From Pleomorphomonas diazotrophica (lineage in GTDB: Bacteria > Pseudomonadota > Alphaproteobacteria > Rhizobiales > Pleomorphomonadaceae), in assembly GCF_002844595.1 (NCBI RefSeq), contig NZ_PJNW01000004.1:1-64000 (forward strand): DNA of 64,000 bases, given 5' to 3'. Shown piece by piece: positions 22,331-41,220 of the stretch. The notes under the pieces were generated by a model. It was not told where the DNA came from. It searched no databases and worked only from the letters and a program-made list of their open reading frames with translations. Position 1 is the first letter of the stretch. Every line of letters begins with the position of its first letter. A program made the translations under genes and the position numbers.

Positions 22331-22815
22331 GGAATGGCTTCGGCCCAAGCCAAAACTGCCGCTTCGTTCGGCGGCAGATCGGTGCCGAGGCCGCCGTGGA
22401 AGGCGGCCCAGGCGGCGGCGTGCTCGGTCCTGACGCCGACGAGCAGCGGCGTGTCGGCCAGCATGGCCCGGCCGAACAGCGAGCGGAAGCCGCCGCCCTC
22501 GATCTCCCTTATGCCGAAGCGGCTGAGGATCAGAAGGTCGAGGCCGGCGTCGACCTGCCGTTCAAGGTCGCCGGCGACGTCGGCCATGACCGAGGTGTCG
22601 AGCTTGCAGGAGGTGGAGAGCGGCCCGAGATTCTGGGTGATCGCCCGGATGGTGCCCCGGCCGAGGTCGACGACCGACAGGCCCTTTTGAGGATCGCGCA
22701 ACTGCGTGACGCCGCCGACCCGCACGCCCCTTTCGGCGAGATGGCGCGCGACGGTGGCGAGCAGCCCGTCGATGTCCGTTTCGGGCGGGTAGAGGATGCC
22801 GGCGAGGGGCGACAT
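22285..22815 (-). CDS. DUF2478 protein (predicted nucleotide-binding)
   Basis: 176 aa. Pattern LAGILYPPETDIDGLLATVA, DLGRGTIRAITQNLG, DLLILSRFGIREIEGGGFR and TPLLVGVR is typical of DUF2478, a P-loop-related family often found near molybdenum transport or cofactor genes. No molybdenum genes are in this window. The C-terminus runs into the intergenic repeat. Cellular role not established. Confidence 0.8.
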   Translation of the reverse strand: MSPLAGILYPPETDIDGLLATVARHLAERGVRVGGVTQLRDPQKGLSVVDLGRGTIRAITQNLGPLSTSCKLDTSVMADVAGDLERQVDAGLDLLILSRFGIREIEGGGFRSLFGRAMLADTPLLVGVRTEHAAAWAAFHGGLGTDLPPNEAAVLAWAEAIPATAGTGFVSGTASS

Positions 22816-26364: not shown

Positions 26365-27380
26365 CGCCCTGGCCGCGCCGTCGACTGGCGGACGATGAGG
26401 CTGAGGTCGATCAGGGTCGGATGGGGCCGGACGGCCTTTCCCTCCAACCTGTCCAGAAGGCGCCCGACGGCCTCGCGTCCCAGCCTGTCTGCAGGTATGC
26501 GCACCGTCGTCAGCTCGGGATGGAGCAGGCGGGCGAGTTCGACGTCGTTGAAGCCCACCACCGAGAGATCGCCGGGAATGGAAAGCCCGAGCTGACGCGC
26601 TGCGCGATAGGCGGCGCCGGCCAGGAGGTCGTCGTCGCAGGCGATGGCGGTGACGCCGCTGGCGATCAGCTCCTTCGCCGCTTCGGTCGCGACCTCGACC
26701 TCGAAGGTGGAGGCGGCATGCCACCGGGTATCGCTGGCAAGGCCGATACGTTCCATCTCCGCAAGGAAGGCAGCGCGGCGACTGCGGAAGGTCAGCTTGG
26801 GATAGAGCGCCGCGAAGTGGCCGATCCGGCGATGCCCCAGCTCGGCGAGATGGCCGACCACCGATTTCATGGCCGAGGCGATGGTGAGGTCGACACCGGA
26901 ACGGCCGGGCGTTTCGCTCTCGACCATGACCACGCGGTCGGCGACGTCGGCGAACTTCGCTTCCGCCTCGGCATCGGGCGTGTAGGTGATGCAGCCGGCG
27001 ATCATCCGGCTGCGGATCATGCCGACCAGCCGCTCGCTCCAGAGGGGGTCGGTGGTGGTGTCGACCAAGAGAACCGAGTAGCCGCGTTCGCGGGCCGCCA
27101 CCTCGGCGGCCACCAGCACTTCGCCGAAAAAGGGCTGCTGGATGTCGGGCACGGCGAAGGCCAGCGTCTTGCCGACGCCGGTCCTGAGCATCTGGGCGGA
27201 TACGTTGGGCCGGTAGCCGAGGCGGGCGGCGGTCGCCTTGATGAGCTCGCGCGTTGCCGGGGCAACGCGCCCCTCGGCCTTGCCGTTCAGGACCAGCGAC
27301 ACCGTCGATTGCGACACGTTGGCTTCTCGCGCCACGTCCCGGCTCGTCACCAGCGGGGTCGTCCTGTCATTCCCAGCCAC
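26361..27380 (-). CDS. LacI-family repressor
   Basis: 339 aa, exactly usual family length with a GTG start at 27380 (GGGGA upstream); longer frames add 29 unlikely residues. [26 protein letters not shown] at ~9-31, hinge [15 protein letters not shown], then a periplasmic-binding-protein-like effector domain. Divergent from the SAH-hydrolase-like gene. Two palindromic sites between them make it the likely repressor of both. Effector unknown. Its stop overlaps the end of the chemoreceptor gene by 4 bases, convergently. Confidence 0.92.
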
Positions 27381-27449
27381 TCGGTGTTCCCCTTCGACCG
27401 CTCCACCGCTCACACATACCCGGATACGGCCTGCCTGTGAATGGATCGC

Positions 27450-27498
27450 GTCATACGTTTGACTCAAGCCGGCGTTTCGGTCTAGTCATACGTTTGAC
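27450..27498 (+). promoter_or_regulatory. Tandem LacI-type operators and promoter
   Basis: Two identical 14-bp near-palindromes GTCATACGTTTGAC at 27450-27463 and 27485-27498, 35 bases apart. A plausible promoter, TTGACT (27459-27464) and TAGTCA (27483-27488) with an 18-base spacer, is formed by the operators themselves, so bound repressor would cover both boxes. Confidence 0.65.
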
Positions 27499-27533
27499 TT
27501 GCAGAGGAAAGCAGCCAACCCGGAGGGACAGCC

Positions 27534-28709
27534 ATGGCAACCAGGATCGATTGGGTGGGGGCGAACACCCGCCTTCTGAGGCAGATCGCCGCCGAATTTC
27601 GTGAGACGCAGCCCTTCGCCGGCATAACCATCGGCACCGGCATCCATCTCGAACCCAAGACCGTCGCCCTGCTAATGACGCTCAAGGACGGCGGCGCCAA
27701 GGTGGTGGCGACGGGCAACCTCAACAGCACGCAGGCCGATGCCGTCGCCTATCTCAGGGAGTGCGGCATAACCGTCATCGGCGAGGCGACGCGCGATCCC
27801 GAGAGGCACCAGGGCTTCCTCAGGGAGGTGCTGGCGAGCCAGCCGGACATCCTGCTCGACAACGGCGGTGACCTGTTCGACCTCTGGCGGCAATCTCCGA
27901 CCGGCAACCTCATCGGCGGCACGGAGGAAACGACGTCCGGCCGGGCGCGGCTCGAACCGCTGCGGTCGTCGCTCAAGCTGCCGATCCTCGTCATCAACGA
28001 CAGCCCGATCAAGCAGTTCGCCGAGAACGAGCATGCGGTGGGGCAGAGCGTTCTCGAATCCTACATGCGCATCACCAACCGGGTGACCAACGGCCAGCGC
28101 GTCACCGTGTTCGGCTACGGCGCCTGCGGGCGCGGCGTGGCGCTGAACTTCAAGGGGGCGCATGCCAAGGTCAGCGTCGTCGACCGCGACCCGCTGAAGC
28201 GCCTGCAAGCCCATCTCGACGGCTACGACACGCCGTCGCGCGACGAGGCGATCGCCAGTGCCGACCTGATCGTCACCGTCACCGGCGGCGGCCGCATCCT
28301 GGGGGATGAGGACATGCCGCTCCTCAAGGACAAGGTCATCCTGGCCAATGCCGGCCACTTCCCGACGGAAATCGACAATACGGCGATCACCGGCAGCTCC
28401 GAGGTCGTCTCGACCGACGTGTTTTCCGACGGCATCGCCAGCCTGACGCTGAGGGACGGCCGCGTGATCCACATCCTCGCCGAGGGGCACATGGTCAACC
28501 TCGCCGGCGCCCGTCCGCTCGGCAACTCCATCGAATCCATGGACCTCGGCTTCGCCCTGCAGGCCCGCTGCCTGGAAGCTGTGGCACTTCGCCGCGTCGA
28601 CGCGTCGAGCTGCGTCGTGCCGGTACCGCGCGACATCAACGAGCGCGTGGCCAACGCCTATCTCGACCTTTGCTACCCCAACGCAAATCCCGCCAGTAGC
28701 CCCGCATAG
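27534..28709 (+). CDS. S-adenosylhomocysteine hydrolase-like NAD-binding protein
   Basis: 391 aa. Resembles adenosylhomocysteinase: early IGTGIHLEPKTVALL, NAD domain VTVFGYGACGRGVALNFKG (GxGxxG near 192-197), TGGGRILGDEDMPLLKDKVILANAGHF and the end LDLCYPNANP. It is shorter than canonical AhcY (~430-470) and lacks parts of its substrate loop, so it may act on a different nucleoside or thioether. GGAGGG before the ATG. Under LacI control. Its last codons lie inside the 87-bp repeat that marks the defence-island boundary. Before the insertion it converged with the racemase gene. Confidence 0.8.
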   Translation: MATRIDWVGANTRLLRQIAAEFRETQPFAGITIGTGIHLEPKTVALLMTLKDGGAKVVATGNLNSTQADAVAYLRECGITVIGEATRDPERHQGFLREVLASQPDILLDNGGDLFDLWRQSPTGNLIGGTEETTSGRARLEPLRSSLKLPILVINDSPIKQFAENEHAVGQSVLESYMRITNRVTNGQRVTVFGYGACGRGVALNFKGAHAKVSVVDRDPLKRLQAHLDGYDTPSRDEAIASADLIVTVTGGGRILGDEDMPLLKDKVILANAGHFPTEIDNTAITGSSEVVSTDVFSDGIASLTLRDGRVIHILAEGHMVNLAGARPLGNSIESMDLGFALQARCLEAVALRRVDASSCVVPVPRDINERVANAYLDLCYPNANPASSPA

Positions 28710-28759
28710 GGTTTGGGCGGGGAGGGGCGCCAGGTGCCGAGGCGGGAGGTGCGGTGGCC
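28673..28759. repeat. 87-bp direct repeat, left boundary of defence island
   Basis: Aligns with 34999-35085 without gaps, 78 of 87 identical. Both copies encode the C-terminus of the SAH-hydrolase-like protein on + (YPNANPAS-PA) and of the racemase on - (PYAGLLAGFALG). All seven differences within the first frame fall at third codon positions. Confidence 0.9.
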
Positions 28760-28800
28760 TTTAGAAGGTCGGCAGGGTAGTCGCCGCAGTTGTAGAGGCG

Positions 28801-28872
28801 TTGTGTGCATCAAAAATGTTTTTGCTGCACACTTGCTCGTGTGTGCAGCTCGTTTATATTTGATGCACACAA
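28801..28872. promoter_or_regulatory. Concentric nested inverted repeats upstream of NTase gene
   Basis: Outer arms TTGTGTGCATCAAA (28801-28814) and TTTGATGCACACAA (28859-28872) are perfect complements. Inner arms GCTGCACAC (28824-28832) and GTGTGCAGC (28841-28849) are too. Both pairs share the same centre (28836.5). All four arms contain TGTGCA/TGCACA. The last arm is 13 bases before the ATG, so bound protein or a folded RNA would control this gene. Confidence 0.75.
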
Positions 28873-28885
28873 CCGAGATTGTCCG

Positions 28886-29905
28886 ATGGCCATCCTCTCT
28901 CATTCCCGAGCCGCCCAGGTTGCCTATCAAGATTTGCTGCGACTGCATCTCGATGAGGCCGCGTCCCAGTTGATCGGCAGCATCGAGGAGCGGACGCGCA
29001 ACGGGCGTATCTACCTTTACGACAAGTTCCGCATCGGCTCGGAAATGAAGAGCCGCTATCTAGGTGAGGGTACGGCCGAGCTGCGCGCACGCCTGAAACG
29101 TGCTGCCGCGTTGAAGGCGGCGGGGGAGGAGCGTCGCAGCACGATGGCCCGGCTCGCCCGCGTGTTGCGCGCAGAAGGGTTCATCGGCACCGATCGCGAC
29201 ACCGGTTCACTGCTACTAGCCTTTGCCCGTGCCGGGGTCTTCCGCCTGGGCGGTACGCTCATCGGAACGGCCGCCTATGCCCTCCTTCAGGGTGACTTGG
29301 GCGTCCGCTTCGGTTCCGAAGAGTTGGCGCAGACCGGCGACATCGACTTTGCGAGTTTCGAGCAGCTTTCGGTTGCTCTGGGCGACGAGGTCGAAGAGAA
29401 CCCAGGGGACATCTTGCAGGCGTTGAAGTTCGACCCGGTACCGGGGGTGATGGATCGGCAGGTGTGGAAATGGAGGCAGAGTCGGGGCACGGCGATGGTC
29501 GAGTTTCTGACGCCAGCCTTTGGTGACGAGAGCGTCAAGCCGCTGCCGGCGTTGGGCGTGAGCGCGCAGGCCCTCAACTACCTGAACTTTCTGATCGCCG
29601 AGCCCATCCCCGCGGTCGCCCTTTATCGATCAGGTGTGCTGGTGCAGATCCCGCGACCCGAGCGCTTCGCGATCCACAAGCTGATCGTCGCCGACCGTCG
29701 CCAGGGCGGCCCCGACCAGGCCAAATCCCGCAAGGACCGCGGGCAAGCGGCATTTCTGATCGAAGTGCTCGCTGAAGACCGTCCCGACGATCTGCGCGAA
29801 GCCTATGAAGATGCGCTTTCCCGCGGCCCGCGCTGGCGTGAGCGGCTGGAAGCAAGTCTTGCGCGGATGCCGGGGACCGCCGAGATACTTCGCGCTCTGG
29901 AGTGA
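28886..29905 (+). CDS. GSU2403-type nucleotidyltransferase-fold protein
   Basis: 339 aa. Matches the NTP_transf_8 pattern: helical N-terminus, GVFRLGGTLIGTAAY, TGDIDFA (carboxylates expected of an MNT-type nucleotidyltransferase), VEFLTPAF and LVQIPRPERFAIHKLIVADRR. Such proteins are predicted nucleotidyltransferases of uncertain target, frequently on accessory DNA. Here it leads a type III RM system, so a defence or toxin-antitoxin-like role is possible but unproven. ATG 28886 has only a weak ribosome site; a longer frame starts inside the inverted repeats and is less likely. Confidence 0.8.
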   Translation: MAILSHSRAAQVAYQDLLRLHLDEAASQLIGSIEERTRNGRIYLYDKFRIGSEMKSRYLGEGTAELRARLKRAAALKAAGEERRSTMARLARVLRAEGFIGTDRDTGSLLLAFARAGVFRLGGTLIGTAAYALLQGDLGVRFGSEELAQTGDIDFASFEQLSVALGDEVEENPGDILQALKFDPVPGVMDRQVWKWRQSRGTAMVEFLTPAFGDESVKPLPALGVSAQALNYLNFLIAEPIPAVALYRSGVLVQIPRPERFAIHKLIVADRRQGGPDQAKSRKDRGQAAFLIEVLAEDRPDDLREAYEDALSRGPRWRERLEASLARMPGTAEILRALE

Positions 29906-30214
29906 GGTCATACTTCATGTGGGCATTATCGAACTGCTCAAGAGCCAACGAGTGTGAACGGCGATCTGTGCCACAGGTCGGGGTTCGAAAAAGCAATTAT
30001 TTGCAGATAGATATACCTTCGCCTGCGATTGTCCCAGACCATTTGTGAGAACGCCGACATCTCGAACCTGAGCTGTGGAGCGGCACGGAGTTCGCTGAGG
30101 CAAGAATCGAGCTATATCCAGATTGTGGGTGAATTGATGGTCTGAATGTAGCTTGACCGGAGGTTGCGACAGCAGCAACTTTCTCAATCTTGGCTCAGGG
30201 AAAGAGGTTGAAGA
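29906..30214. other. Intergenic region before mod
   Basis: 309 bases with lower GC than flanking genes. No gene is supported; it presumably contains the mod promoter. No repeat or palindrome was identified. Confidence 0.4.
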
Positions 30215-32341
30215 GTGTCTCGTTTGACGGATCTGATCGCGCGGGCAAAGGCTAAGGATGCCGCGCTCGGGGAAGAGCTCGAACGGGAGTTCAAGGCGCT
30301 GGCGTCGAGACGGGCTTTTGGTTTGAACTTCGAACGGCACAGACCGGAGAGTGTTGAACTGCCGGGCAGACATGTCAGAAGAGGTGACAAGGTGCGTGTC
30401 CTGCCGCCGCGTGGCTCGACCCAACGCGGCGATCAGCGGCTATGGCGAGTGATCCGGCTTGACGGCGAAGGCGAGGAGCGTAGGGCGCAGGTCGCGTTGA
30501 TCGATGCCGAGGTACCCGAGAGGGCCGATGTGGCGGTTGCCGATCTGGTCGTGGTGGCCGAGTTCCGCGACTACATCTACCCCGGACTTGTCAGCACAGG
30601 TCGAGTCCAGCGAGGGGGAGACAAACCATTTCACACGGTGATCAACGGCGAGAACTTCCATGTGCTCGAAGCGCTGACTTACACCCATCGTGGCAAGATC
30701 GATGCTATCTATATCGACCCGCCCTATAACACCGGGGCACGTGACTGGAAATACAACAACGATTACGTAGAGTCAGAGGACTTGTACCGCCATTCGAAAT
30801 GGCTAGCGTTCATGGAACGACGACTAAAGGTTGTTAGTGCGCTACTCAATCCCAAAAGGAGTATCTTGATCGTCACTATTGATGAGAAGGAGTATCTTCG
30901 CCTTGGACTTCTACTGGAGCAGACGTTTCCCGAAGCCGAAATTCAGATGGTGAGCAGCGTAATCAACCCGAAGGGCACTGCGCGCGGAAACGAGTTTGCG
31001 CGGGTGGACGAATACATCTTCTTTGTCAAGTTTGGAGGGATCGCCCTGTCGCGTTCAAACCGCGACATGTTGAACGAGCGCGACTATGCACTTGATGAGG
31101 ACGTTCGATGGAGAGGGCTCGCTAGAACAGGCCGAAAGGGTCTCCGCGCGCATAATCCAGGTTCGTGGTATCCGATTTACGTAAAAACCGATGGAAGCGG
31201 GATTCAGTCGGTGGGAGATACGGTCTTGGTCGAGGAGCCTGAGCCAGGAGAAGCCCCAGAGGGTACTGTCGCGATTTGGCCGCCGCGAGCCAACGGTCAA
31301 GAGTATAGCTGGTCAGTGGTCCCGGAAACTCTACGGGCCTTGATAGATAAGGGTGCTGTTCGTACTGGCAGAATTGATCTGAAGAAGTTGTCCGTTCCCA
31401 TCTATTATCTATCGTTCAATCAGCTTTCTGCAATTGAAGATGGTCGGTTGCAAGTTATCGGCAAAGCAGAAGACGGCACTCTCGAATTGAAATACGCCAC
31501 CGGATCGCGATCTGCAGCGCCTAGAACGATTTGGAACATGACATCACATGACGCAGGGAGTCACGGAACGAGCCTTCTACGTACGTTGATGCCTGATCGG
31601 CGATTTCCGTTTCCAAAGTCGCTATACGCCGTCGAAGATGCACTTCGCTTCTTCGTGAAGGAAAAGACCGACGCCGTCATTCTGGATTTCTTCTCCGGCT
31701 CCGGCACCACGGCACATGCCGTCATGCGACTGAACCGCCAGGATGGCGGGCGGCGGCAGTGCATCTCGGTCACCAACAATGAGGTTGCAGCTGACGAACA
31801 GGCAACCCTGCGCAAGGCGGGTCTGCGTCCGGGGGACCCGGACTGGGAGAAGTGGGGTATCTGCGACTACATCACCAAGCCGCGGATCGCCGCAGCCATC
31901 ACAGGCAAAACGCCGGAGGGCAAGGAAATCGAAGGCGACTACAAGTTCACCGACGAGTTCCCGATGGCCGAGGGGTTCGATGAGAACGCCGAGTTTTTCA
32001 CCCTGACCTACGAATCCCACGTCGCGGTCGGTGCGAACTTCGCCTTCCAGCGCATCGCGCCCCTTCTATGGATGCGGGCGGGGGCGGAGGGCCGTCGGAT
32101 CGATGACCTGCCTGCCGACGGGTGGGAGGTGGCTGACACCTATGGCCTGCTGGTCGATCTGGACCGTGCAGGCACCTTCTGCGCGACTATCGCCGCGCAC
32201 GGCGGTATACGCGTCGCCTATGTGGTGACCGACGACGACCGCCGTTTCCAGTCGGTTGCTCGCGCTCTGCCGGGCGGCGTCGAACCCGTGCGGCTCTACG
32301 AGTCTTACCTCTCCAATTTCCGCTTTTCGATAGGCCGCTGA
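30215..32341 (+). CDS. mod: Type III restriction-modification methyltransferase (Mod)
   Basis: 708 aa adenine-N6 methyltransferase and specificity subunit. Catalytic DPPYNTG at ~168-174 precedes the AdoMet motif DFFSGSGTTAHAV at ~492-504, the beta-class order expected for Mod. The region between (~260-470) is the target-recognition domain and is AT-richer than the ends. GTG start with AGAGG upstream; no better ATG. The res gene follows after three bases, so the two are co-translated. It methylates one strand of an asymmetric site and guides Res; the site cannot be predicted. Confidence 0.93.
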   Translation: MSRLTDLIARAKAKDAALGEELEREFKALASRRAFGLNFERHRPESVELPGRHVRRGDKVRVLPPRGSTQRGDQRLWRVIRLDGEGEERRAQVALIDAEVPERADVAVADLVVVAEFRDYIYPGLVSTGRVQRGGDKPFHTVINGENFHVLEALTYTHRGKIDAIYIDPPYNTGARDWKYNNDYVESEDLYRHSKWLAFMERRLKVVSALLNPKRSILIVTIDEKEYLRLGLLLEQTFPEAEIQMVSSVINPKGTARGNEFARVDEYIFFVKFGGIALSRSNRDMLNERDYALDEDVRWRGLARTGRKGLRAHNPGSWYPIYVKTDGSGIQSVGDTVLVEEPEPGEAPEGTVAIWPPRANGQEYSWSVVPETLRALIDKGAVRTGRIDLKKLSVPIYYLSFNQLSAIEDGRLQVIGKAEDGTLELKYATGSRSAAPRTIWNMTSHDAGSHGTSLLRTLMPDRRFPFPKSLYAVEDALRFFVKEKTDAVILDFFSGSGTTAHAVMRLNRQDGGRRQCISVTNNEVAADEQATLRKAGLRPGDPDWEKWGICDYITKPRIAAAITGKTPEGKEIEGDYKFTDEFPMAEGFDENAEFFTLTYESHVAVGANFAFQRIAPLLWMRAGAEGRRIDDLPADGWEVADTYGLLVDLDRAGTFCATIAAHGGIRVAYVVTDDDRRFQSVARALPGGVEPVRLYESYLSNFRFSIGR

Positions 32342-32344
32342 CCC

Positions 32345-34930
32345 ATGAAGTTTACCCTCAAGGACTATCAGGAAGAAGCCGTTGGCAAGGTTCTGGTGAA
32401 TCTCAAGAAGGCGTCGAAGCGCTGGCGCGAGGACGGTGACAAGCACGCCTTTTCGCTGACGGCGACAACGGGCGCGGGTAAAACCGTTATGGCGGCGGCC
32501 GTGTTCGAAGCGCTGTTCCACGGCGATGACAACTATGACATCGAGCCTGATCCGGGTGCGGTCGTGATCTGGTTCAGCGACGATCCTTCGCTGAATGAAC
32601 AGTCTCGATACCGCCTGCTTCAGGCGTCGGACCGACTGTCGATCTCGGACCTGGTGGTTGTTCAGAGCACCTTTCAACGCGAAGCGCTCGAGCCTGGAAA
32701 GGTTTATTTCCTGAACACGCAGAAGCTGAGCAAGTCGAGCCTGCTCGTGCGCGGGCGAGAACCGGATGAGGAGGCCGACACGAATGCGCCGCCGCTGCCG
32801 ATGCCGGACAGTCGGTCCTGGACGATATGGGACACGATCCAGAACACGATCGATGACCCGGCCCTGACGCTCTATCTCGTTCTCGACGAGGCGCATCGCG
32901 GGATGCGCGCAGCAACCGGCGCAGGTGAAAAGACAACTATTGTCAAGCGTCTGATCAACGGATCGGGTTCCGTGCCAGGCATCCCTGTCGTCTGGGGCAT
33001 CTCGGCCACGGTTGAGCGGTTTAACGTGGCGATGGCCGACATGCAGGGGCGCGCGACCCTGCCTAACGTCATTGTGGATTCGGGCAAGGTGCAGGCGTCC
33101 GGTCTCTTGAAGGACACGATCAATCTCGACGTACCAAAGGAAGTGGGGCAGTTCGACACAGTGCTGGTGCGCCGTGGCACCGACAAGCTGAAGGAAATCT
33201 CGGCAGCCTGGGCTGCGTATGGAGCGCAGCAGACCGATGCCGGTGTGGTGCTGCCACTGATGGTGTTGCAGGTGCCCAATGCGCCGGATCACAATGAGAT
33301 CGGTAAGGCGCTAGACACGATCTTCACCCAGTGGCCGGACTTGCCAGAGGATGCGGTGGCGCATGTGTTCGGCGAACACTCGGCCCAGACCTTTGGACAT
33401 CACAGCGTGCCCTATATCTCGCCAGAAAGGGTGCAAGATACATCTTGGGTAAGGGTTTTGATTGCCAAGGATGCCATCAGTACAGGATGGGACTGCCCGC
33501 GGGCCGAAGTTATGGTTTCGTTCCGTCCGGCCCTAGACAAGACGCACATTACGCAGCTTCTTGGTCGTATGGTGCGGACCCCATTAGCACGGCGTATTCC
33601 CGGCAATGATCGGCTGAACTCGGTGGACTGCTTGCTGCCGTTCTTTGACGAGAACTCTGTCAAGGATGTCGCCAAGGCATTGAAGTCTGGAGGCGACGGT
33701 GGCGACGCTCTTCCCGGTCGCCGAGTTCTAATCAACCCCGTTGAGTTGAGGCCGAACCCCGCCATCCCAGAGGTGATCTGGGACAAGCTGCTTTCGCTGC
33801 CGTCACAGACGCTGCCCAAGCGACATGTGCGCCCGGTCAAGCGACTGACATCGCTAGCACACGAGCTGGCGGCGGATGATTTGCTTGTCGATGCAGGGAA
33901 GCTGGCTCACGCCGAGATGCACAAGGTTCTGGACGGCATATGTGCCCGCTACAAGGCCGAGATCAAGGTTGCCCGTAGTTCCGTGCTTACAGTTGAGGGC
34001 ACGAGTCTGAAAGCCGATCTGAAGGGCGAGGCCATGTCCTTCGACGACTTCCTCGAAGAAGCGGACTACGTTGTAATAGAAGATGCCTATCGGCGCGCCG
34101 GTCGAGCGATTAGCCCGGATCTCGCGACGTCATATAGCAAGCACTTGGCGCGCAATGTCGGGGACCAGCATGACATGGAGGAAGCCCTGAAGGAGGCTCA
34201 CGTGAGCATTGCGGCCTTGGGCTTGGTTCCACAGGCTCGAGAAACGCTTGATGCCGAGGCCGAAAAGCTCTCCAATCATTGGCTCACGCGATTTCGGGTC
34301 GAGATAAAGGGGCTCACGGACGAACGCCAGGATGTCTATCGGCAGATCAAGGAAATGAGCGCCAATCCAATGGAGGTGAACATCGCTCGTCCGACGTCGT
34401 GGATGCAAACTTCAACGATCCGAGAGGCAAACGGCGTTGAAAAGCCTCTTCAAACATTTGCTAAGCACCTGCTTTGTAACGAAGAAGGACTCTTCCCAGA
34501 CTGTTTCAACTCTTGGGAAGATGAAGTGATAAGGGCGGAGCTCGACCGGCCGGGCACGGTCGCGTGGTATCGCAACCCATCGCGAGCCAGCCAGGACTCG
34601 CTTGGAATCATCTATAGCGATGGCGCGGAATCGAAGATCTTGCGGCCTGACTTCGTCTTCTTCTCCCAGCAGAGTGACGGAACTGTGGTTGCCGATATTG
34701 TTGATCCTCATGGTATTCAGTTAAACGACGCGGTTCCGAAACTCCGAGGGTTAGCGCAATACGCTGCTAAATATGGGAGCCATTATCGAAGGATCGAGGC
34801 CGTGGCCAAGATTGGTGACAAGTTCCGCGTACTGGACCTAATGGAAGAGAAGACAAGGAAGGCCATCGGATCCGCAAGCTCGGTTAAGGAGCTATACGAG
34901 AGTGCTGTCGGGTCGGATTATGTAGTTTGA
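32345..34930 (+). CDS. res: Type III restriction endonuclease subunit (Res)
   Basis: 861 aa SF2 translocase/nuclease. Walker A TTGAGKT at 41-47, DEAH box at ~181-184, motif III GISATVERF and helicase C-terminal motifs (AKDAISTGWDCPRAEVMVSFR, ITQLLGRMVRTP). The C-terminal region has RPDFVFF followed by VADIVDPHG, in the place of the PD-(D/E)xK nuclease; the last Lys of that motif is not obvious, so activity should not be assumed. Full length, no frameshift seen. Confidence 0.92.
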   Translation: MKFTLKDYQEEAVGKVLVNLKKASKRWREDGDKHAFSLTATTGAGKTVMAAAVFEALFHGDDNYDIEPDPGAVVIWFSDDPSLNEQSRYRLLQASDRLSISDLVVVQSTFQREALEPGKVYFLNTQKLSKSSLLVRGREPDEEADTNAPPLPMPDSRSWTIWDTIQNTIDDPALTLYLVLDEAHRGMRAATGAGEKTTIVKRLINGSGSVPGIPVVWGISATVERFNVAMADMQGRATLPNVIVDSGKVQASGLLKDTINLDVPKEVGQFDTVLVRRGTDKLKEISAAWAAYGAQQTDAGVVLPLMVLQVPNAPDHNEIGKALDTIFTQWPDLPEDAVAHVFGEHSAQTFGHHSVPYISPERVQDTSWVRVLIAKDAISTGWDCPRAEVMVSFRPALDKTHITQLLGRMVRTPLARRIPGNDRLNSVDCLLPFFDENSVKDVAKALKSGGDGGDALPGRRVLINPVELRPNPAIPEVIWDKLLSLPSQTLPKRHVRPVKRLTSLAHELAADDLLVDAGKLAHAEMHKVLDGICARYKAEIKVARSSVLTVEGTSLKADLKGEAMSFDDFLEEADYVVIEDAYRRAGRAISPDLATSYSKHLARNVGDQHDMEEALKEAHVSIAALGLVPQARETLDAEAEKLSNHWLTRFRVEIKGLTDERQDVYRQIKEMSANPMEVNIARPTSWMQTSTIREANGVEKPLQTFAKHLLCNEEGLFPDCFNSWEDEVIRAELDRPGTVAWYRNPSRASQDSLGIIYSDGAESKILRPDFVFFSQQSDGTVVADIVDPHGIQLNDAVPKLRGLAQYAAKYGSHYRRIEAVAKIGDKFRVLDLMEEKTRKAIGSASSVKELYESAVGSDYVV

Positions 34931-34998
34931 CCTAGAGTGGAGCGTCACCTAGCTCTTTGTTTTCACGCAAAACCGCAAAACACTTTTGCCCGATTTGC

Positions 34999-35085
34999 CT
35001 ACCCCAACGCAAACCCTGCGAGCAGGCCAGCATAAGGCTTGGGCGGGGAGGGGCGCCAGGCGCCGAGGCGGGAGGTGCGGTGGCC
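34999..35085. repeat. 87-bp direct repeat, right boundary of defence island
   Basis: Partner of 28673-28759. It contains the true 3' end of the racemase gene and a second, detached copy of the SAH-hydrolase-like gene tail. Confidence 0.9.
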
Positions 35086-35733
35086 GAGGCGGATCAGGGT
35101 TTCCATGAGGCCGACGGCGGCGGCGACGCCGTCGATGACCGGCAGGCCGTGCTGGGCTGACAGTTCGGCGGCAAGGTCGGCCATGCCGGCGCAGCCGAGC
35201 ACGATGGCGTCAGTGCCGTCCTCGGCGATGGCCGCCTCGATCTCCCGGGAGATCCTGTCGCAGGCGGCCGGATTGCGCTCCTCGAGGGCCAGTACCGGCA
35301 CGTCGGCGGCACGCACGCGGGCGCAGCGGCTTCCGAGGCCGTAGCGGGAGAGGTTGTGCTCGATCGGCCGGATGGACAGCGACAGCGTCGTCACCACCGA
35401 GAAGCGGTCGGCCACCAGCGTCGCCACGTGAAAAGCCGCCTCGCCGATGCCGACGACCGGCGCCTTGGCGACGGCGCGGGCGGCGTCGAGGCCGGTGTCG
35501 TCGAAGCAGGCGATGACGTGGCCGTCGGCGCCATCGGCATCGGCGACGCGGATGGCCTGGAGCAGACCGGGCAGGGCCAGCGCCTCGTCGTAGTAGCCCT
35601 CGATGGAGGCCGGGCCCATGGCCGATTGACCCTGGATGATCCTGGTGCCGGCGGCGGCCACCGCGCGGGCGGCGGCGGCGATCTTCTCGGTCATCGCCTC
35701 GGTGGTGTTGGGGTTGACCACGTGGATGCGCAT
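34999..35733 (-). CDS. Asp/Glu/hydantoin racemase family protein
   Basis: 244 aa. Hydantoin-racemase-like: MRIHVVNPNTTEAMTEKI, first catalytic Cys in IACFDDTGLDAAR (~76) and second in VLGCAGMADLA (~182), the two-base Cys pair of cofactor-independent racemases. Last gene of the ABC importer operon, 4 bases from the preceding permease stop, which suggests the transported compound is a hydantoin or amino-acid derivative; substrate unproven. The C-terminal ~28 residues are encoded in the island boundary repeat. Confidence 0.88.
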   Translation of the reverse strand: MRIHVVNPNTTEAMTEKIAAAARAVAAAGTRIIQGQSAMGPASIEGYYDEALALPGLLQAIRVADADGADGHVIACFDDTGLDAARAVAKAPVVGIGEAAFHVATLVADRFSVVTTLSLSIRPIEHNLSRYGLGSRCARVRAADVPVLALEERNPAACDRISREIEAAIAEDGTDAIVLGCAGMADLAAELSAQHGLPVIDGVAAAVGLMETLIRLGHRTSRLGAWRPSPPKPYAGLLAGFALG

Positions 35734-35737
35734 CGGC

Positions 35738-36640
35738 TCACACCATGCCCTGTCCGGCGTCCGAGCCTTGGGCTGCCTGCCGGCGCTGAAGGATGCGGAT
35801 CATCAGCACGGCCAGGAAGATGACCGTGAAGGAAACGACGGAGATCACCGTGCCGAGCGCGTAGATGTCGGGCTGGGTGACGGTGGTGGTGAGGCCCTGG
35901 AGATCGAGGGGCAGCGTGTTGACCGGGCCGATCGCCTGGCTGGAGCGGGCGAGCTCGTCCCAGCTCAGCGTGAAGCCGAACAGGCCGATGCCCACCACCG
36001 ACGGGGCGATGATCGGCAGCACCACGTGGCGGAAGGTCTGCCAGGGCGTGGCGCCGAGGTCGCGGGCCGCCTCCTCGAGGCGCGGGTCGAAGCGGTTGAA
36101 GATGGCGAACATGATGAGGAGGCCGAAGGGCAGCGTCCAGGTGAGGTGGGCGCCGAGGCCGGAGGTGTAGAGCCCCATGGCCGTTTCCCAGTTGTCGGCG
36201 ATGTCCTGCATGCCCCAACTGCCGAAGTGGTTGATGATGTAGTCGTCGAGCAGGCGGAACTCCAAGGCGATGCCGAGCGAGGTGATCAGCGACGGCACGA
36301 TCAGGCTGGCGATCGCCACGTAAAAGAGCAGCGCCTGGCCGGCGAAGCGGCGGCGGAAGGCCATGCCGGCGGAGACCGAGATCACCACCGTCAGCACCAT
36401 AACCGTCACGCCGAGGCCGAGCGAACGGCTGAAGGCGGTGCCGATGTCGATGATGCCGTTGCCCTGCCAGAGCTTGGCGAACCAGGTGAGCGACACGCCG
36501 TTCATCGGGAAGGTGAGGCCGCCCTGCGGCCCCTGGAAGGACAGGATGTAGATGGCGATCATCGGTCCGTAGAGGAACAGCACATAGAGGCCGAAGAAGA
36601 TGGCCAGGAACCAGAAGGCCTTGGAGCGCCCTTCGATCAT
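35738..36640 (-). CDS. ABC importer permease (PotC-like)
   Basis: 300 aa inner-membrane protein with six predicted TM helices. The permease coupling loop EEAARDLGATPWQTFRHVVLPIIAPS (EAA motif) is at ~195-220. It belongs to the spermidine/putrescine or Fe-type family. ATG 36640 lies 2 bases after the stop of the other permease. It forms the channel with PotB-like and is powered by the ATPase at 39212. Confidence 0.9.
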   Translation of the reverse strand: MIEGRSKAFWFLAIFFGLYVLFLYGPMIAIYILSFQGPQGGLTFPMNGVSLTWFAKLWQGNGIIDIGTAFSRSLGLGVTVMVLTVVISVSAGMAFRRRFAGQALLFYVAIASLIVPSLITSLGIALEFRLLDDYIINHFGSWGMQDIADNWETAMGLYTSGLGAHLTWTLPFGLLIMFAIFNRFDPRLEEAARDLGATPWQTFRHVVLPIIAPSVVGIGLFGFTLSWDELARSSQAIGPVNTLPLDLQGLTTTVTQPDIYALGTVISVVSFTVIFLAVLMIRILQRRQAAQGSDAGQGMV

Positions 36641-36642
36641 GG

Positions 36643-37530
36643 TCAGAGCTCCTTGCGGATGTCGACGAGCTTGGTCAGCGCGGCGATGATCAGGAAGGTG
36701 ACGCCGAGGAGGATCACCGCGTTGGCGGCGGCGGCCGGAAATTGCAGCGCGTCGAGCCGAGTCTGGATGATCTTGCCGGCCGAGGCGATCTGCTGGCCGC
36801 CCATCACGCCGACGGTGACGAAATCGCCCATGACGATGGTGATGACGAAGATCGAGCCGATGACGATGCCCGGCTTGCAGAGCGGCACGATGACGTTCCA
36901 CAGCGTCTGCCAGCCGGTGGCGCCGGCGTCATAGGCCGCCTCGATCAGCGAGCGGTCGATGCGGATCATCGAGTTGAAGATCGGCACCACCATGAAGAAG
37001 GTGAAGAGGTGGACGAGCGCCAGGATCACCGAGAACTGCGAATAGAGCAGCCAGTCGAGCGGCTCGTCGATGGCGCCTATGGCGAGAAGGAAGGAGTTGA
37101 CCAGCCCGTTGCGGCCGAGCAGCGGGATCCAGGCGATCATGCGGATGACGTTGGAGGTCCAGAAGGGGATGGTGCAGATCAGGCTCAGGATGATCTGCCA
37201 CTCCTTGGACTTCACCTCGAAGGCCAGGAAATAGGCGACGGTGAAGCCGATCACCAGCGTCGCCGCCCAGACGATGGCGCAGAATTTCAGGGTTTGCAGA
37301 TAGGTCCGGGCGATGGTGCAGAGGCCGGGCAGTTCGGCAAGGCAGCCCTCGAAGCTGTCGGTGTAGCCGCGCCCCGAGAGCACCGGCAGCATCTGGTAGT
37401 CGTTGTAGTCCCAGAAGCTGACGATGACGACGAACACCAGCGGCAGCACGAAGAAGGCGAGGAAGACCAGCGCCAGCGGGCCGGCTTGCAACCAAGCTAT
37501 GAAGGTGGAGCGGCCTGAGGTTTCCTGCAT
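36643..37530 (-). CDS. ABC importer permease (PotB-like)
   Basis: 295 aa. N-terminal TM (GPLALVFLAFFVLPLVFVVI), a periplasmic loop, then the membrane domain with EAA motif IEAAYDAGATGWQTLWNVIVPLCKPG. ATG 37530 is chosen as the start of MQETSGRST; the longer frame has no signals. Separated from the binding protein by 220 bases in which no gene is seen. Confidence 0.9.
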   Translation of the reverse strand: MQETSGRSTFIAWLQAGPLALVFLAFFVLPLVFVVIVSFWDYNDYQMLPVLSGRGYTDSFEGCLAELPGLCTIARTYLQTLKFCAIVWAATLVIGFTVAYFLAFEVKSKEWQIILSLICTIPFWTSNVIRMIAWIPLLGRNGLVNSFLLAIGAIDEPLDWLLYSQFSVILALVHLFTFFMVVPIFNSMIRIDRSLIEAAYDAGATGWQTLWNVIVPLCKPGIVIGSIFVITIVMGDFVTVGVMGGQQIASAGKIIQTRLDALQFPAAAANAVILLGVTFLIIAALTKLVDIRKEL

Positions 37531-37750
37531 GGGCGGCGGCTTTCGTCGGATGGACGGGGCTTGGGCGGCCCCTCCCCAAACGGGAAGGAGCCTAGCGAGG
37601 CTCGACCTGAGAGCCTGATCTGAAACTCGCTGGGGCGCGGCAGATGGCGACGAGCGCGAGAACCGGAGCGCAGCGGGCTCAAGGCCCGTGAGCACCGGAA
37701 GCGCAGCGTTCTACGCTAGATGCCCGGCCCAGTAGAGTTTCTGGTCAGGC

Positions 37751-39046
37751 TCAAGCGGCGATGAACTCGTTCCACTTCCTCACCATGTAGTCGTTCTCAT
37801 CCATGACGGAGTTCCAGCAGGCGACGTTGCCCATGCGGTCGTCGTAGGAGCCGCCGTCACGCACGGCGCCGGCCTTCTCCAGAAGCGAACCGTCGGGGGC
37901 GAGGATGTCCTTCTCGGCCGGCTTGCCTTCCATCCAGTAGGCCCACTCGTAGGGCTCCATGTTGGCCTTGGCGGTGGAGAGGACGGCCGAATAGTAGCCC
38001 TGGCGGTTGAGGTAGCCGCCGGCGAAGCCCGACAGGAACCAGTTGATGAACTCGTAGGCCCATTCCTGCTTGGCTCCCTTGACGCCCTTGGACATGCAGA
38101 AGCCCGAGGCCCAGGAGCGGTAGCCTTCCTTGAGCGGCTGGAAGGTGCAGGGGATGCCCATGGAGCGCACCTTGGTGACGGCCGGCGACCACATGGACTG
38201 GATGACCGTCTCGCCCGAGCTCATCAGGTTGACGCTCTCGTTGAAGTCCTTCCAGAAGGCGCGGAACTGGCCGGACTTCTTGGCTTCCGTCAGGATCTTC
38301 ATGGTCAGGTCGATCTCGTCGCGGGTCATGTTGCCCTTGTCGGGATACTTGTACTGGCCGGTCGCCTCGACCACCATGGCGGCGTCCATGATGCCGATCG
38401 AGGGGATGTTGAGGATCGACGCCTTGCCCTTGAACTCGGGGTTGAGCAGTTCGGCCCAGCTCGTGATCGGCCGCTTGATCAGGTCGGGGCGGATGCCCAG
38501 CGTGTCGGCGTTGTAGACGGTGGGGATGAGGGTGACCCACTCGGTGGGCGCCTTGGCGAAGACGTCGGAATCCGGGCCTTCGAGATAGAGCACCTTCCAC
38601 GGCGCCGTGCCCTGGTCGCCGATCTTCTTGCCGCTCGGCAGCTCGCCCTTGGTGAACACCGGGGTGATGTTGTCGAACTCCTTGATCTTCTTGGCGTCGA
38701 GCGGAAGGATGTTGTTGGAAGGCACCAGCTTCTTCAGGCTGAAATACTCGGTGTCGAGCACGTCGAAGCTGTTGGGTTGGGTCATCACGCGCTTGGTCAC
38801 GTCGTCGGTGGTGGCGGTGATGTACTGGATCTTGATGCCGGTGTCCTCGAAGCACTTCTTGGAGATGGCGTCACCCTCGTTGACGGCGGTGCCGAGGTAG
38901 CGCAGCACCTTCTCCTCCGACGCCTTGACATAGGGAAAGCCGGTGATGGCTCCCGCGCCGGCGGCGAGGCCGGCAACGCCGGCGGCTCCCTTGAGCAGCG
39001 ACCGGCGGCTGAGGCCGGCGGAAAGCGTGGTCGTGGTCTCGGTCAT
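37751..39046 (-). CDS. ABC importer solute-binding protein (Tat-exported)
   Basis: 431 aa. Tat signal with SRRSLLKGAAGVAGLAAGAGA at ~13-33. The mature part is a PotD-like periplasmic binding fold (FDVLDTEYFSLKKL, WAYEFINWFLS). Captures a polyamine- or opine-like ligand for the permeases; the ligand is not predictable. Second gene of the operon, 165 bases after the ATPase stop. Confidence 0.9.
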   Translation of the reverse strand: MTETTTTLSAGLSRRSLLKGAAGVAGLAAGAGAITGFPYVKASEEKVLRYLGTAVNEGDAISKKCFEDTGIKIQYITATTDDVTKRVMTQPNSFDVLDTEYFSLKKLVPSNNILPLDAKKIKEFDNITPVFTKGELPSGKKIGDQGTAPWKVLYLEGPDSDVFAKAPTEWVTLIPTVYNADTLGIRPDLIKRPITSWAELLNPEFKGKASILNIPSIGIMDAAMVVEATGQYKYPDKGNMTRDEIDLTMKILTEAKKSGQFRAFWKDFNESVNLMSSGETVIQSMWSPAVTKVRSMGIPCTFQPLKEGYRSWASGFCMSKGVKGAKQEWAYEFINWFLSGFAGGYLNRQGYYSAVLSTAKANMEPYEWAYWMEGKPAEKDILAPDGSLLEKAGAVRDGGSYDDRMGNVACWNSVMDENDYMVRKWNEFIAA

Positions 39047-39211
39047 GGTTTCATTCTCCCCTCTGGGCCGCCTCTCATGAGGTCGGCGATGGCGGCTATT
39101 CCAGCGGCCAATCCCTGAGCCGCCGAGACGCCTGATCCCTGGTCCGCAAGCCGCTGGTGCATCCGCGAAAGCAGGGAATTTCCGCCGGACGGCAGATGCC
39201 GCCCGGTCGTG

Positions 39212-40195
39212 TCATTCAAGGACGTGCGCCTCGGCGCCGTCCCAGGTGGCGGTGACGCCGTCGCCGACGGCGACCGGCCGAGCGTCGAAAGCCGCTTCGC
39301 CGAGGTGGGCGATCAGCTCCTCGCCGGCTTCGGACTTGACGACGACCTGCACGAAGGTGCCCTGGTACTCGACGTCGGTGACGGTGCCGGCGATGCCTGG
39401 CCCGCTCTCAGCGGGACGCAAGGCCAGCTTGTCGGCGCGCACGGCGATGGCGCCGCTGCTCGTATCGATGACGTTGTGGCCGCCGATGAAGCGGGCGACG
39501 AAGGCGGTGCGCGGCCGGTTGAACACCTCGCGCGGGCTGCCCATCTGCTCGATCCGGCCGCCGTTCATCAGCACAACAAGGTCGGCCAGCGCCATGGCCT
39601 CCTCCTGGCCGTGGGTCACATGGATGAAGGTGATGCCGAGCTCGCGTTGCAGGCGCTTCAGCTCGGCGCGCATCTTGATGCGCAGGAAGGGGTCGAGCGC
39701 CGACAGCGGCTCGTCGAGCAGCAGGATCTGCGGTTCGGTGATGAGGGCGCGGGCGAGCGCCACGCGCTGCTGCTGGCCGCCGGAGAGCTGGGTCGGCAGG
39801 CGGCCGGCATAGGGCGTCATGGCGACGAGGTCGAGCAGCTCGGAGGCACGGCGGCGGCGCGTCGCCTTGTCGACGCCGCGCATCTTCAGCGCAAAGGCGA
39901 CGTTGTCGATGACGGTGAGGTGGGGAAACAGGGCGTAGGACTGGAACATCATGGCCGTGCCGCGCCGGGCCGGCGGCAGGTCGGTGACGTTCTGGTTGCC
40001 GAGGATGATGTCGCCCTCACTCGCCGCCTCGTGGCCGGCGATCATGCGCAGCGTCGATGACTTGCCGCAGCCCGACGGCCCCAGCAGGCAGCAGTAGGTG
40101 CCGGCGGCGATGCGCAGGTCGATGGCGTCCACGGCGGTGGTCGCGCCGTAGCGCTTGGAAAGCGCCACCAGTTCGAGCGCGGCTGGATTCGGCAT
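39212..40195 (-). CDS. ABC importer ATPase (PotA-like)
   Basis: 327 aa. Walker A GPSGCGKSS at ~39-47, Q-loop MMFQSYALFPH, signature [15 protein letters not shown], Walker B ILLLDEPLSALD, then a C-terminal OB/TOBE-type domain. GGGGG lies before ATG 40195; an earlier ATG at 40240 is less likely. First gene of the operon ATPase - binding protein - two permeases - racemase, divergent from the GntR gene. Confidence 0.92.
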   Translation of the reverse strand: MPNPAALELVALSKRYGATTAVDAIDLRIAAGTYCCLLGPSGCGKSSTLRMIAGHEAASEGDIILGNQNVTDLPPARRGTAMMFQSYALFPHLTVIDNVAFALKMRGVDKATRRRRASELLDLVAMTPYAGRLPTQLSGGQQQRVALARALITEPQILLLDEPLSALDPFLRIKMRAELKRLQRELGITFIHVTHGQEEAMALADLVVLMNGGRIEQMGSPREVFNRPRTAFVARFIGGHNVIDTSSGAIAVRADKLALRPAESGPGIAGTVTDVEYQGTFVQVVVKSEAGEELIAHLGEAAFDARPVAVGDGVTATWDGAEAHVLE

Positions 40196-40492
40196 CTGAC
40201 CCCCTGGTCTGCTCGGCGAGCGGTGTTTACGATTTCGCAAGAGCTGTGCCAGAGGGATTTGCGAGAGAGGTGGAGGGAAAATCCTTTCCGATCAGATGCT
40301 TGTCTTACTCGCCGGCTCATACGTAGTTTGACTAGAATTTGATCACATTCGTAAACTTCGCCCGATTTTCCGGCATATTGAATACATAAACGAAGTGATC
40401 GTATACAAAAATTCCCTTTGAGGGATGCAATATCAGTCGCTACGATGGGTGCATTCCTGCCGCGCCGCGGCGGTGTCCAAACGACAGGGATC
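40196..40492. promoter_or_regulatory. Divergent control region of importer operon and GntR gene
   Basis: AT-rich gap between divergent starts. GATCACATTCGT (40341-40352) and ACGAAGTGATC (40390-40400) form an imperfect inverted repeat ~50 bases apart, with a GTATAC next to the second arm. This is a plausible operator pair for the adjacent GntR protein. No assured -35/-10. Confidence 0.35.
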
Positions 40493-41188
40493 ATGGCGAC
40501 AGACACGTCCTCGACCGGCGCGCCCGACCGCGTCTCGCGCATCCGCAACGGCCTGCTGCTGGCGATCCTGGAGCATCGCCTGCTGCCGGGCACCAAGCTC
40601 GGCGAGGACGAGATCGGCCAGATCTACGACGCCTCGCGCACGCTGGTACGGGCGGCATTGCAGCAGCTCGCCCATGAGGGCATCGTCGAGATCGAGAAGA
40701 ACCGGGGCGCCTTCGTTGCCAGCCCGTCGCCGCGCGAGGCGCGCGAAACCTTCGAGGCGCGCTGCCTGATCGAGGGCGCGATCGTCGAGCGGGCGGTCAA
40801 GGCGCGGTCGGAGACCTGGCGGGTTCGGCTCGACGATCAGCTCGCAGCGGAGGCCGATGCCGAGGCGCGCGGCGACCACAGGGCGGCCATCCGCCTATCG
40901 GGTGAATATCACCTCCTGGTGGCCGAAATGGCCGACCACGAGCTCTACTACAGCCTGCTGCGCGAACTGGTGGCCCGCACGTCGCTGACCATCCTGCTCT
41001 ATCGCCGCCACCGCGTTCACTTCTGTGGCGTCGATCATCACCGCCTGATCACCGACGCCATCGTCAGCGGCGATGCCGTGCGCGCCAAGGCGCTGATGAT
41101 CGATCACCTCAAGGAAATCGAGGCCGAACTCGACCTCACGGAAACAGAGGAAAGCAGCGCCTCGCTGGCGGACATATTGCAAGGATAG
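40493..41188 (+). CDS. GntR-family (FCD) transcriptional regulator
   Basis: 231 aa. Winged HTH at ~15-80 (GTKLGEDEIGQIYDASRTLVRAALQQLAHEGIVEIEKNRGAFV), followed by an FCD all-helical ligand domain with conserved Asp/His (RCLIEGAIVERAV, SGEYHLLVAEMA, DHHRLITDAI). Divergent from the ABC/racemase operon and probably its regulator. ATG 40493 (GGGA upstream) is chosen over one 16 codons earlier. Confidence 0.9.
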   Translation: MATDTSSTGAPDRVSRIRNGLLLAILEHRLLPGTKLGEDEIGQIYDASRTLVRAALQQLAHEGIVEIEKNRGAFVASPSPREARETFEARCLIEGAIVERAVKARSETWRVRLDDQLAAEADAEARGDHRAAIRLSGEYHLLVAEMADHELYYSLLRELVARTSLTILLYRRHRVHFCGVDHHRLITDAIVSGDAVRAKALMIDHLKEIEAELDLTETEESSASLADILQG

Positions 41189-41220
41189 GGGGTGGCCCGA
41201 AAAGTTTCGGGCGGAGCCCG

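Follow-up and report, generated by a model that had tools for sequence, protein, structure and literature searches.

A 6.2-kb segment with a type III-like restriction-modification pair between two diverged copies of a racemase gene end in Pleomorphomonas diazotrophica

The 64,000-nucleotide stretch of DNA analysed here, referred to as the window, comes from the 4.5-Mb genome of Pleomorphomonas diazotrophica (assembly GCF_002844595.1, positions 1 to 64,000 of contig NZ_PJNW01000004.1, which is 191 kb long and is called C33 in our dataset). In this window a segment of 6.2 kb (28760–34998) is enclosed by two copies of an 87-bp direct repeat, which lie at the end of an S-adenosylhomocysteine (SAH)-hydrolase-like gene on the left and at the end of an Asp/Glu/hydantoin racemase gene on the right. 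The enclosed segment, in the following called the island, contains the gene of a GSU2403-type nucleotidyltransferase and a type III-like restriction-modification pair (mod and res). The features of the locus are:

27534–28709, forward strand: SAH-hydrolase-like gene, of which the final 12 codons (stop included) fall within repeat copy 1, antisense to the putative old racemase end
28673–28759, no strand: repeat copy 1, an unattached and probably displaced racemase 3' end, continuous with the SAH-hydrolase-like gene; Ala-to-Thr change at 28735
28760–28799, no strand: left junction sequence without a clear source (query 28745–28805 against five congeners, best E 0.079)
28800–28873, forward strand: imperfect palindromes, two in tandem, whose four half-sites are alike; a putative operator before the nucleotidyltransferase gene
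28886–29905, forward strand: GSU2403-type nucleotidyltransferase (Pfam NTP_transf_8), 339 amino acids from the ATG at 28886; 91–93% amino acid identity in six congeners
30215–32341, forward strand: type III restriction-modification methyltransferase (mod) with DPPY and GSGTT motifs
32345–34930, forward strand: type III-like restriction subunit (res) with GAGKT, DEAH and SAT motifs; C-terminal RPDF...DIVDPHG at the expected PD-(D/E)xK site
34931–34998, no strand: right junction sequence (query 34840–34998, no plasmid match)
34999–35085, no strand: repeat copy 2, the functional racemase 3' end, starting at the racemase stop codon
34999–35733, reverse strand: Asp/Glu/hydantoin racemase gene; the same-strand open reading frames upstream resemble ABC-transporter genes by eye

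The repeat had been reported in a first-pass annotation made from the sequence alone, and its coordinates, length and differences were all confirmed. The two copies have 9 mismatches, at repeat positions 16, 19, 22, 25, 28, 31, 37, 40 and 63. The first base of the repeat region belongs to the racemase stop codon, and the racemase frame is open to this stop in copy 2. As the annotation had also claimed, eight of the nine differences are silent third-position changes in the racemase frame; the ninth, at repeat position 63, falls on a first codon position and exchanges Ala for Thr. The Thr occurs in copy 1 alone; Ala is found in copy 2 and in three related genomes, G003, G005 and G004 (G003 was taken as Pleomorphomonas oryzae DSM 16300 and G004 as Oryzibacter oryziterrae). 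This change looks like the beginning decay of a detached end. Seven differences fall into the SAH-hydrolase frame, and the annotation was right that all seven lie at third positions and that the wobble positions of the two frames coincide, yet one of the seven alters the residue (Ser to Arg). When 9 changes were placed at random, at least 8 of them were silent in the racemase frame with a frequency of only 1.5e-4 (20,000 simulations).

From this pattern it had been concluded that both copies preserve two overlapping protein tails. Both frames are present in each copy, but the SAH-hydrolase-like gene is attached at copy 1 only and the racemase gene at copy 2 only, and the remaining “tail” of each copy is a detached reading frame. 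In its stronger form the claim would be that the SAH-hydrolase and racemase tails had each been under separate selection in both copies before these met. The exclusive use of third positions in the SAH-hydrolase frame is what speaks for it. However, because the wobble positions coincide, selection on the racemase alone suffices to leave the antisense frame nearly unchanged and gives the same pattern, and the Ser to Arg exchange does not fit a protected tail. Furthermore, the antisense frame is open to the same stop in G005 (YPSAKSASRPA) and in G004 (QPTAKSENIPA), although searches of G004 and of G005 (assembly 89% complete) at E <= 1e-60 did not reveal an SAH-hydrolase-like gene. In G011 and G013, which have an SAH-hydrolase-like gene but in which a racemase was not found at E <= 1e-40, the protein has no such tail and ends in CYGPAQ and CYGAAG, respectively, about 6 residues earlier than in G003 and P. 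diazotrophica. The additional residues arise because the gene continues, at 28673–28709, across the racemase end on the opposite strand. We therefore consider separate selection on both tails highly improbable; judged from the sequences compared, the two preserved tails are one, that of the racemase. The case illustrates a trap in the reading of overlapping genes, in that shared wobble positions let selection on one gene mimic the preservation of the other.

A comparison with relatives that lack the island, as the annotation had proposed, revealed an empty site. The segment corresponding to the repeat is present in 3 of 14 genus genomes, twice in P. diazotrophica and once each in G003 and G005; a duplicated segment does not occur in any of the 13 congeners. 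At the empty site of G003 the SAH-hydrolase-like gene and the racemase gene are convergent, overlap by 34 bp and share a single copy of the segment. The window flanks 26374–28759 and 35016–41192 align to stretches of G003 that overlap by 70 bp (22707–22776), within its segment copy, and both flanks thus adjoin in this genome. An empty site already holding two copies, which would have contradicted the proposed insertion, was thus not observed. The gene that follows the racemase in G005 appears TetR-like by eye. Neither a donor nor a conspecific genome was found among the genomes searched.

The degree of divergence between the two copies is informative about their origin. Within the repeat, the racemase frame has 29 wobble positions, of which 8 differ between the copies (0.276); for the whole racemase gene the wobble divergence is 0.288 between P. 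diazotrophica and G003, 0.234 between P. diazotrophica and G005, and 0.218 between G003 and G005. The copies have thus diverged to the level seen between species, under the coding constraint of the racemase, and one of the ends therefore probably came with the island from a relative. Most likely, to judge from these silent differences, each copy evolved as the end of a racemase gene in a genome of its own, and the two came together later. The claim that both copies evolved as functional gene ends can be kept in this form, for racemase ends with silent divergence at species level, but not for two tails that were each preserved, given the frames in G005 and G004 and the protein ends in G011 and G013.

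A different history would be that the gene end was duplicated, ancestrally or in place, with the copies diverging later in one genome. It is in keeping with the fact that the copies are each other's closest relatives among the available sequences, with 9 differences between them, compared to 17 (copy 1) and 16 (copy 2) against G003, and 15 and 13 against G005. However, G003 and G005 are single-copy, and the divergence equals the between-species level and is almost wholly silent. Divergence in place is further disfavoured because positions 38–87 of copy 1, which lie outside a whole gene and would be free to drift, carry only 2 of the 9 changes (P 3.9e-4 by a simple site count). We thus give this duplication scenario very little credence.

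Eight of the nine differences are crowded into repeat positions 16–40. A mosaic or gene-conversion reading of this cluster was considered and rejected as evidence, since the last 11–12 racemase codons are also the most variable ones between species (9/11 and 8/12 wobble sites, compared to 5/29 and 6/29 in the preceding block). As between-species variation peaks near the stop codon as well, the crowding there needs no special cause. Neither copy could be assigned to a known species on the basis of similarity, because each resembles the other most, with G003 and G005 at similar distances from both. Both copies share YPNANP, as opposed to YQSAKS in G003 and YPSAKS in G005. Since these shared states are absent from G003 and G005, the donor, which was not among the genomes searched, was probably closer to P. 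diazotrophica than either of them.

An arrangement of this kind is known from the prophage e14 of Escherichia coli K-12, which is inserted in the 3' end of the protein-coding gene icd, supplies a replacement end and leaves the displaced end at its far side; a passage in PMC11148124 describes this duplication of the icd end. As a control, we compared the icd end with icdC and found 165 bp to be duplicated with 12 differences, 11 of which are at third positions. In e14, too, a restriction gene (mcrA) is located near the displaced end. Unlike the island, e14 is annotated over about 15 kb, has a different target gene and a different cargo, and possesses a putative integrase gene (intE, as named in the same part of PMC11148124); none was found in the island. 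By analogy, the island may have arrived as an element with a replacement racemase end that recombined with the resident end. The suggestion of the annotation that an incoming element brought its own version of the gene ends is thus compatible with the empty site in G003, the species-level divergence of the copies and the likeness to e14.

Elements without integration functions have been described as cis-mobilizable elements (CIMEs), in which, according to PMC5704250, cargo lies between attachment (att)-like repeats without genes for integration or transfer. The island likewise has its cargo between att-like direct repeats at a gene end, one of which restores the target gene, and no integration or transfer genes were seen in it. 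In agreement with the annotation, which had noted that no integrase is present, neither the island nor the rest of the 191-kb contig contains a match to Phage_integrase or Resolvase; the genome has 6 and 2 matches to these families, respectively, all of them on other contigs. A parent integrative and conjugative or integrative and mobilizable element with the same ends was not found.

We tentatively favour, with slightly more doubt than trust, the reading that 28760–34998 is an att-type insertion at the racemase 3' end, made by an integrase that has since been lost or acted from elsewhere. The island would have come from a different host within the genus, bringing its own version of the racemase gene end, and a circular element would have recombined at an attachment site in the resident racemase end. 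Copy 2 would then be the swapped-in end, which kept the racemase intact, and copy 1 the displaced original end, which still provides the SAH-hydrolase-like gene with its antisense tail. What is left would be a CIME-like remnant. Several results weigh against this interpretation. Apart from the lack of an integrase match on the contig, a third copy of the segment was not found in the P. diazotrophica genome, where a search with the repeat segment matched at these two places only (next best 15 bp, E 1.2). Among 77 racemase loci that could be tested, with between 500 bases and about 8 kb of sequence past the gene, 76 had no downstream repeat of the tail; the exception (L055) has a 22-bp tail repeat of 91% identity that is probably due to chance. 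Finally, the cargo includes one gene that is also found elsewhere in genus chromosomes, and none that is recognised as belonging to a mobile element. A scan of 80 racemase loci for integrase motifs yielded one doubtful match, in a procedure that recovered just 2 of 6 control integrases, so that the result carries little weight.

The same data could be explained by an integrase-free acquisition from a congener that had the island beside its racemase, and the tests at hand do not separate the two routes. This could have happened in two forms. Homologous recombination in the racemase may have been combined with an illegitimate joint just past copy 1 (homology-facilitated illegitimate recombination), so that copy 1 would be entirely native and copy 2 donor sequence up to the crossover. 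Alternatively, a circular donor may have been taken up by a single homologous crossover in the shared gene end. Neither form requires an integrase, in line with the absence of a match nearby. The repeat ends at the racemase stop, where the homology of copy 1 to a neighbour without the SAH-hydrolase-like gene, such as G005, ends anyway, and the racemase tail and the nucleotidyltransferase are both at the ordinary between-species divergence of the genus. Such displacement has been proposed for type VI secretion system (T6SS) arrays of Vibrio and for Rhs orphan ends, as outlined in a portion of PMC5361080: donor homology lies on one side and the displaced native gene end on the other, without an integrase. 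In those cases, effector genes are displaced and immunity genes kept, whereas here a metabolic gene end would have been exchanged for an equivalent one. A difficulty is that the joint would have had to fall downstream of the SAH-hydrolase stop codon. Taking both forms together, we regard integrase-free acquisition as quite possible, if on balance doubtful.

With respect to the cargo, the designation “defence island” fits the restriction-modification pair but not the nucleotidyltransferase, which had no PADLOC match and also occurs in other genomes of the genus. The mod protein matches the PADLOC model MTase_III over residues 1–707 of 708 (E 4.8e-299), with DPPY at 168 and GSGTT at 495. The best PADLOC match of res is weak (6.5e-10); its motifs are GAGKT at 43, DEAH at 181 and SAT at 220. 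A mod gene with DPPY and FxGxG-type motifs is thus adjacent to a res gene with helicase motifs, as is characteristic of type III systems. The C-terminus of res (34643–34714, the one stretch judged) reads RPDF...DI(V/I)DPHG in each of the 7 proteins aligned (P. diazotrophica and six relatives; the split gene of G102 was left out), and by eye the lysine normally present is missing from them. Because this motif departs from the usual PD-(D/E)xK, and as judged from sequence only, the pair is best called type III-like.

At E <= 1e-100, res had matches in 7 of the 397 order genomes searched, P. diazotrophica among them, and it was not found in the 19 other family members. Two viral contigs in IMG/VR (L154, L155) carry res, at 87 and 83%. 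At two other loci, relatives of the pair have an ArdC-like gene (L123) or a phage terminase gene (L124) in their vicinity. In G102 the res gene (L127) consists of two separate reading frames, of which the first is about 95% and the second 82% identical to that of P. diazotrophica. In none of the five relatives examined is res located beside the nucleotidyltransferase gene (G093, the weakest match, was left out). By comparison, 7 of 14 genus genomes, including P. diazotrophica, possess the nucleotidyltransferase at an amino acid identity of at least 91%; the search of 20 family genomes (again including P. diazotrophica) yielded the six congeners at 91–93% and one distant match at 42%. An IMG/VR scan like that for res found no nucleotidyltransferase. 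The nucleotidyltransferase and mod-res modules have different histories. The GC content is about 0.62–0.65 in the nucleotidyltransferase gene, 0.52–0.65 in the mod-res pair and about 0.62–0.73 in the flanks. Between the nucleotidyltransferase and mod genes, the string gtcggggttcgaa is found at 29977–29989, which we presumed to resemble half of a tRNA T-arm. A tRNA remnant was rejected, as ARAGORN found no tRNA and Rfam gave no match above the gathering score.

The palindromes upstream of the nucleotidyltransferase gene, which were found incidentally, form a putative operator and are a better lead than the repeat. In the congeners the gene is at a partly shared locus in G003, G007, G008, G010 and G013, and elsewhere in G011. 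A neighbour gene of this genus locus (antiporter-like by eye) is present in P. diazotrophica at 80% amino acid identity without the rest of the synteny. Homology of the island copy to the congener loci (L143–L148) begins at about the palindromes and ends with the stop codon. A plasmid search with the left island end gave 10 records, in which every match was over the palindrome part; searches with the right end and the middle of the island gave no plasmid matches. We scored the layout of two palindromes with four half-sites in the 130-bp upstream regions of 19 homologues (P. diazotrophica, six congeners and twelve selected plasmid genes; the distant G001 homologue was left out). In 18 of the 19 the score exceeded those of all 40 base shuffles, Paracoccus yeei being the one that failed, a count that is descriptive because the layout had been noticed in the same sequences beforehand.

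Half-sites similar to TGTGCATCAA occur in 12 loci. The others have TACCCCACAA (Leisingera and Labrenzia), TACCACGCAA (Thalassobaculum), TACAACAAAA (Celeribacter), TGTGCGACAA (Thioclava) and TTGCTAGGCA (one Pseudosulfitobacter plasmid). That the four sites are alike within a locus but different between loci suggests a binding protein which changes with them, perhaps the nucleotidyltransferase itself. Sequence comparison of the nucleotidyltransferase with PDB chains gave no match at E <= 1, and a literature search found no papers on GSU2403 together with the nucleotidyltransferase or on NTP_transf_8. From these observations a further history can be sketched, in which the palindromes and the nucleotidyltransferase gene would be a solitary, self-regulating cassette that moves between sites in the genus and onto plasmids of Alphaproteobacteria as a single unit, bounded by the operator-like repeats and the stop codon. 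The protein or a partner would bind the co-changing two-palindrome operator, and the cassette would have entered the racemase locus together with the restriction-type pair via gene-end homology, without an integrase. We consider this unlikely.

Insertion at a gene end with a replacement end is an already known way for foreign DNA to settle, and this locus is a fresh instance of it. It provides a natural example of a restriction-type pair that settled at a gene end without harm, in which the silent differences point to two genomes of origin. If the integrase-free route were true, congeners could swap defence cargo through gene ends alone.

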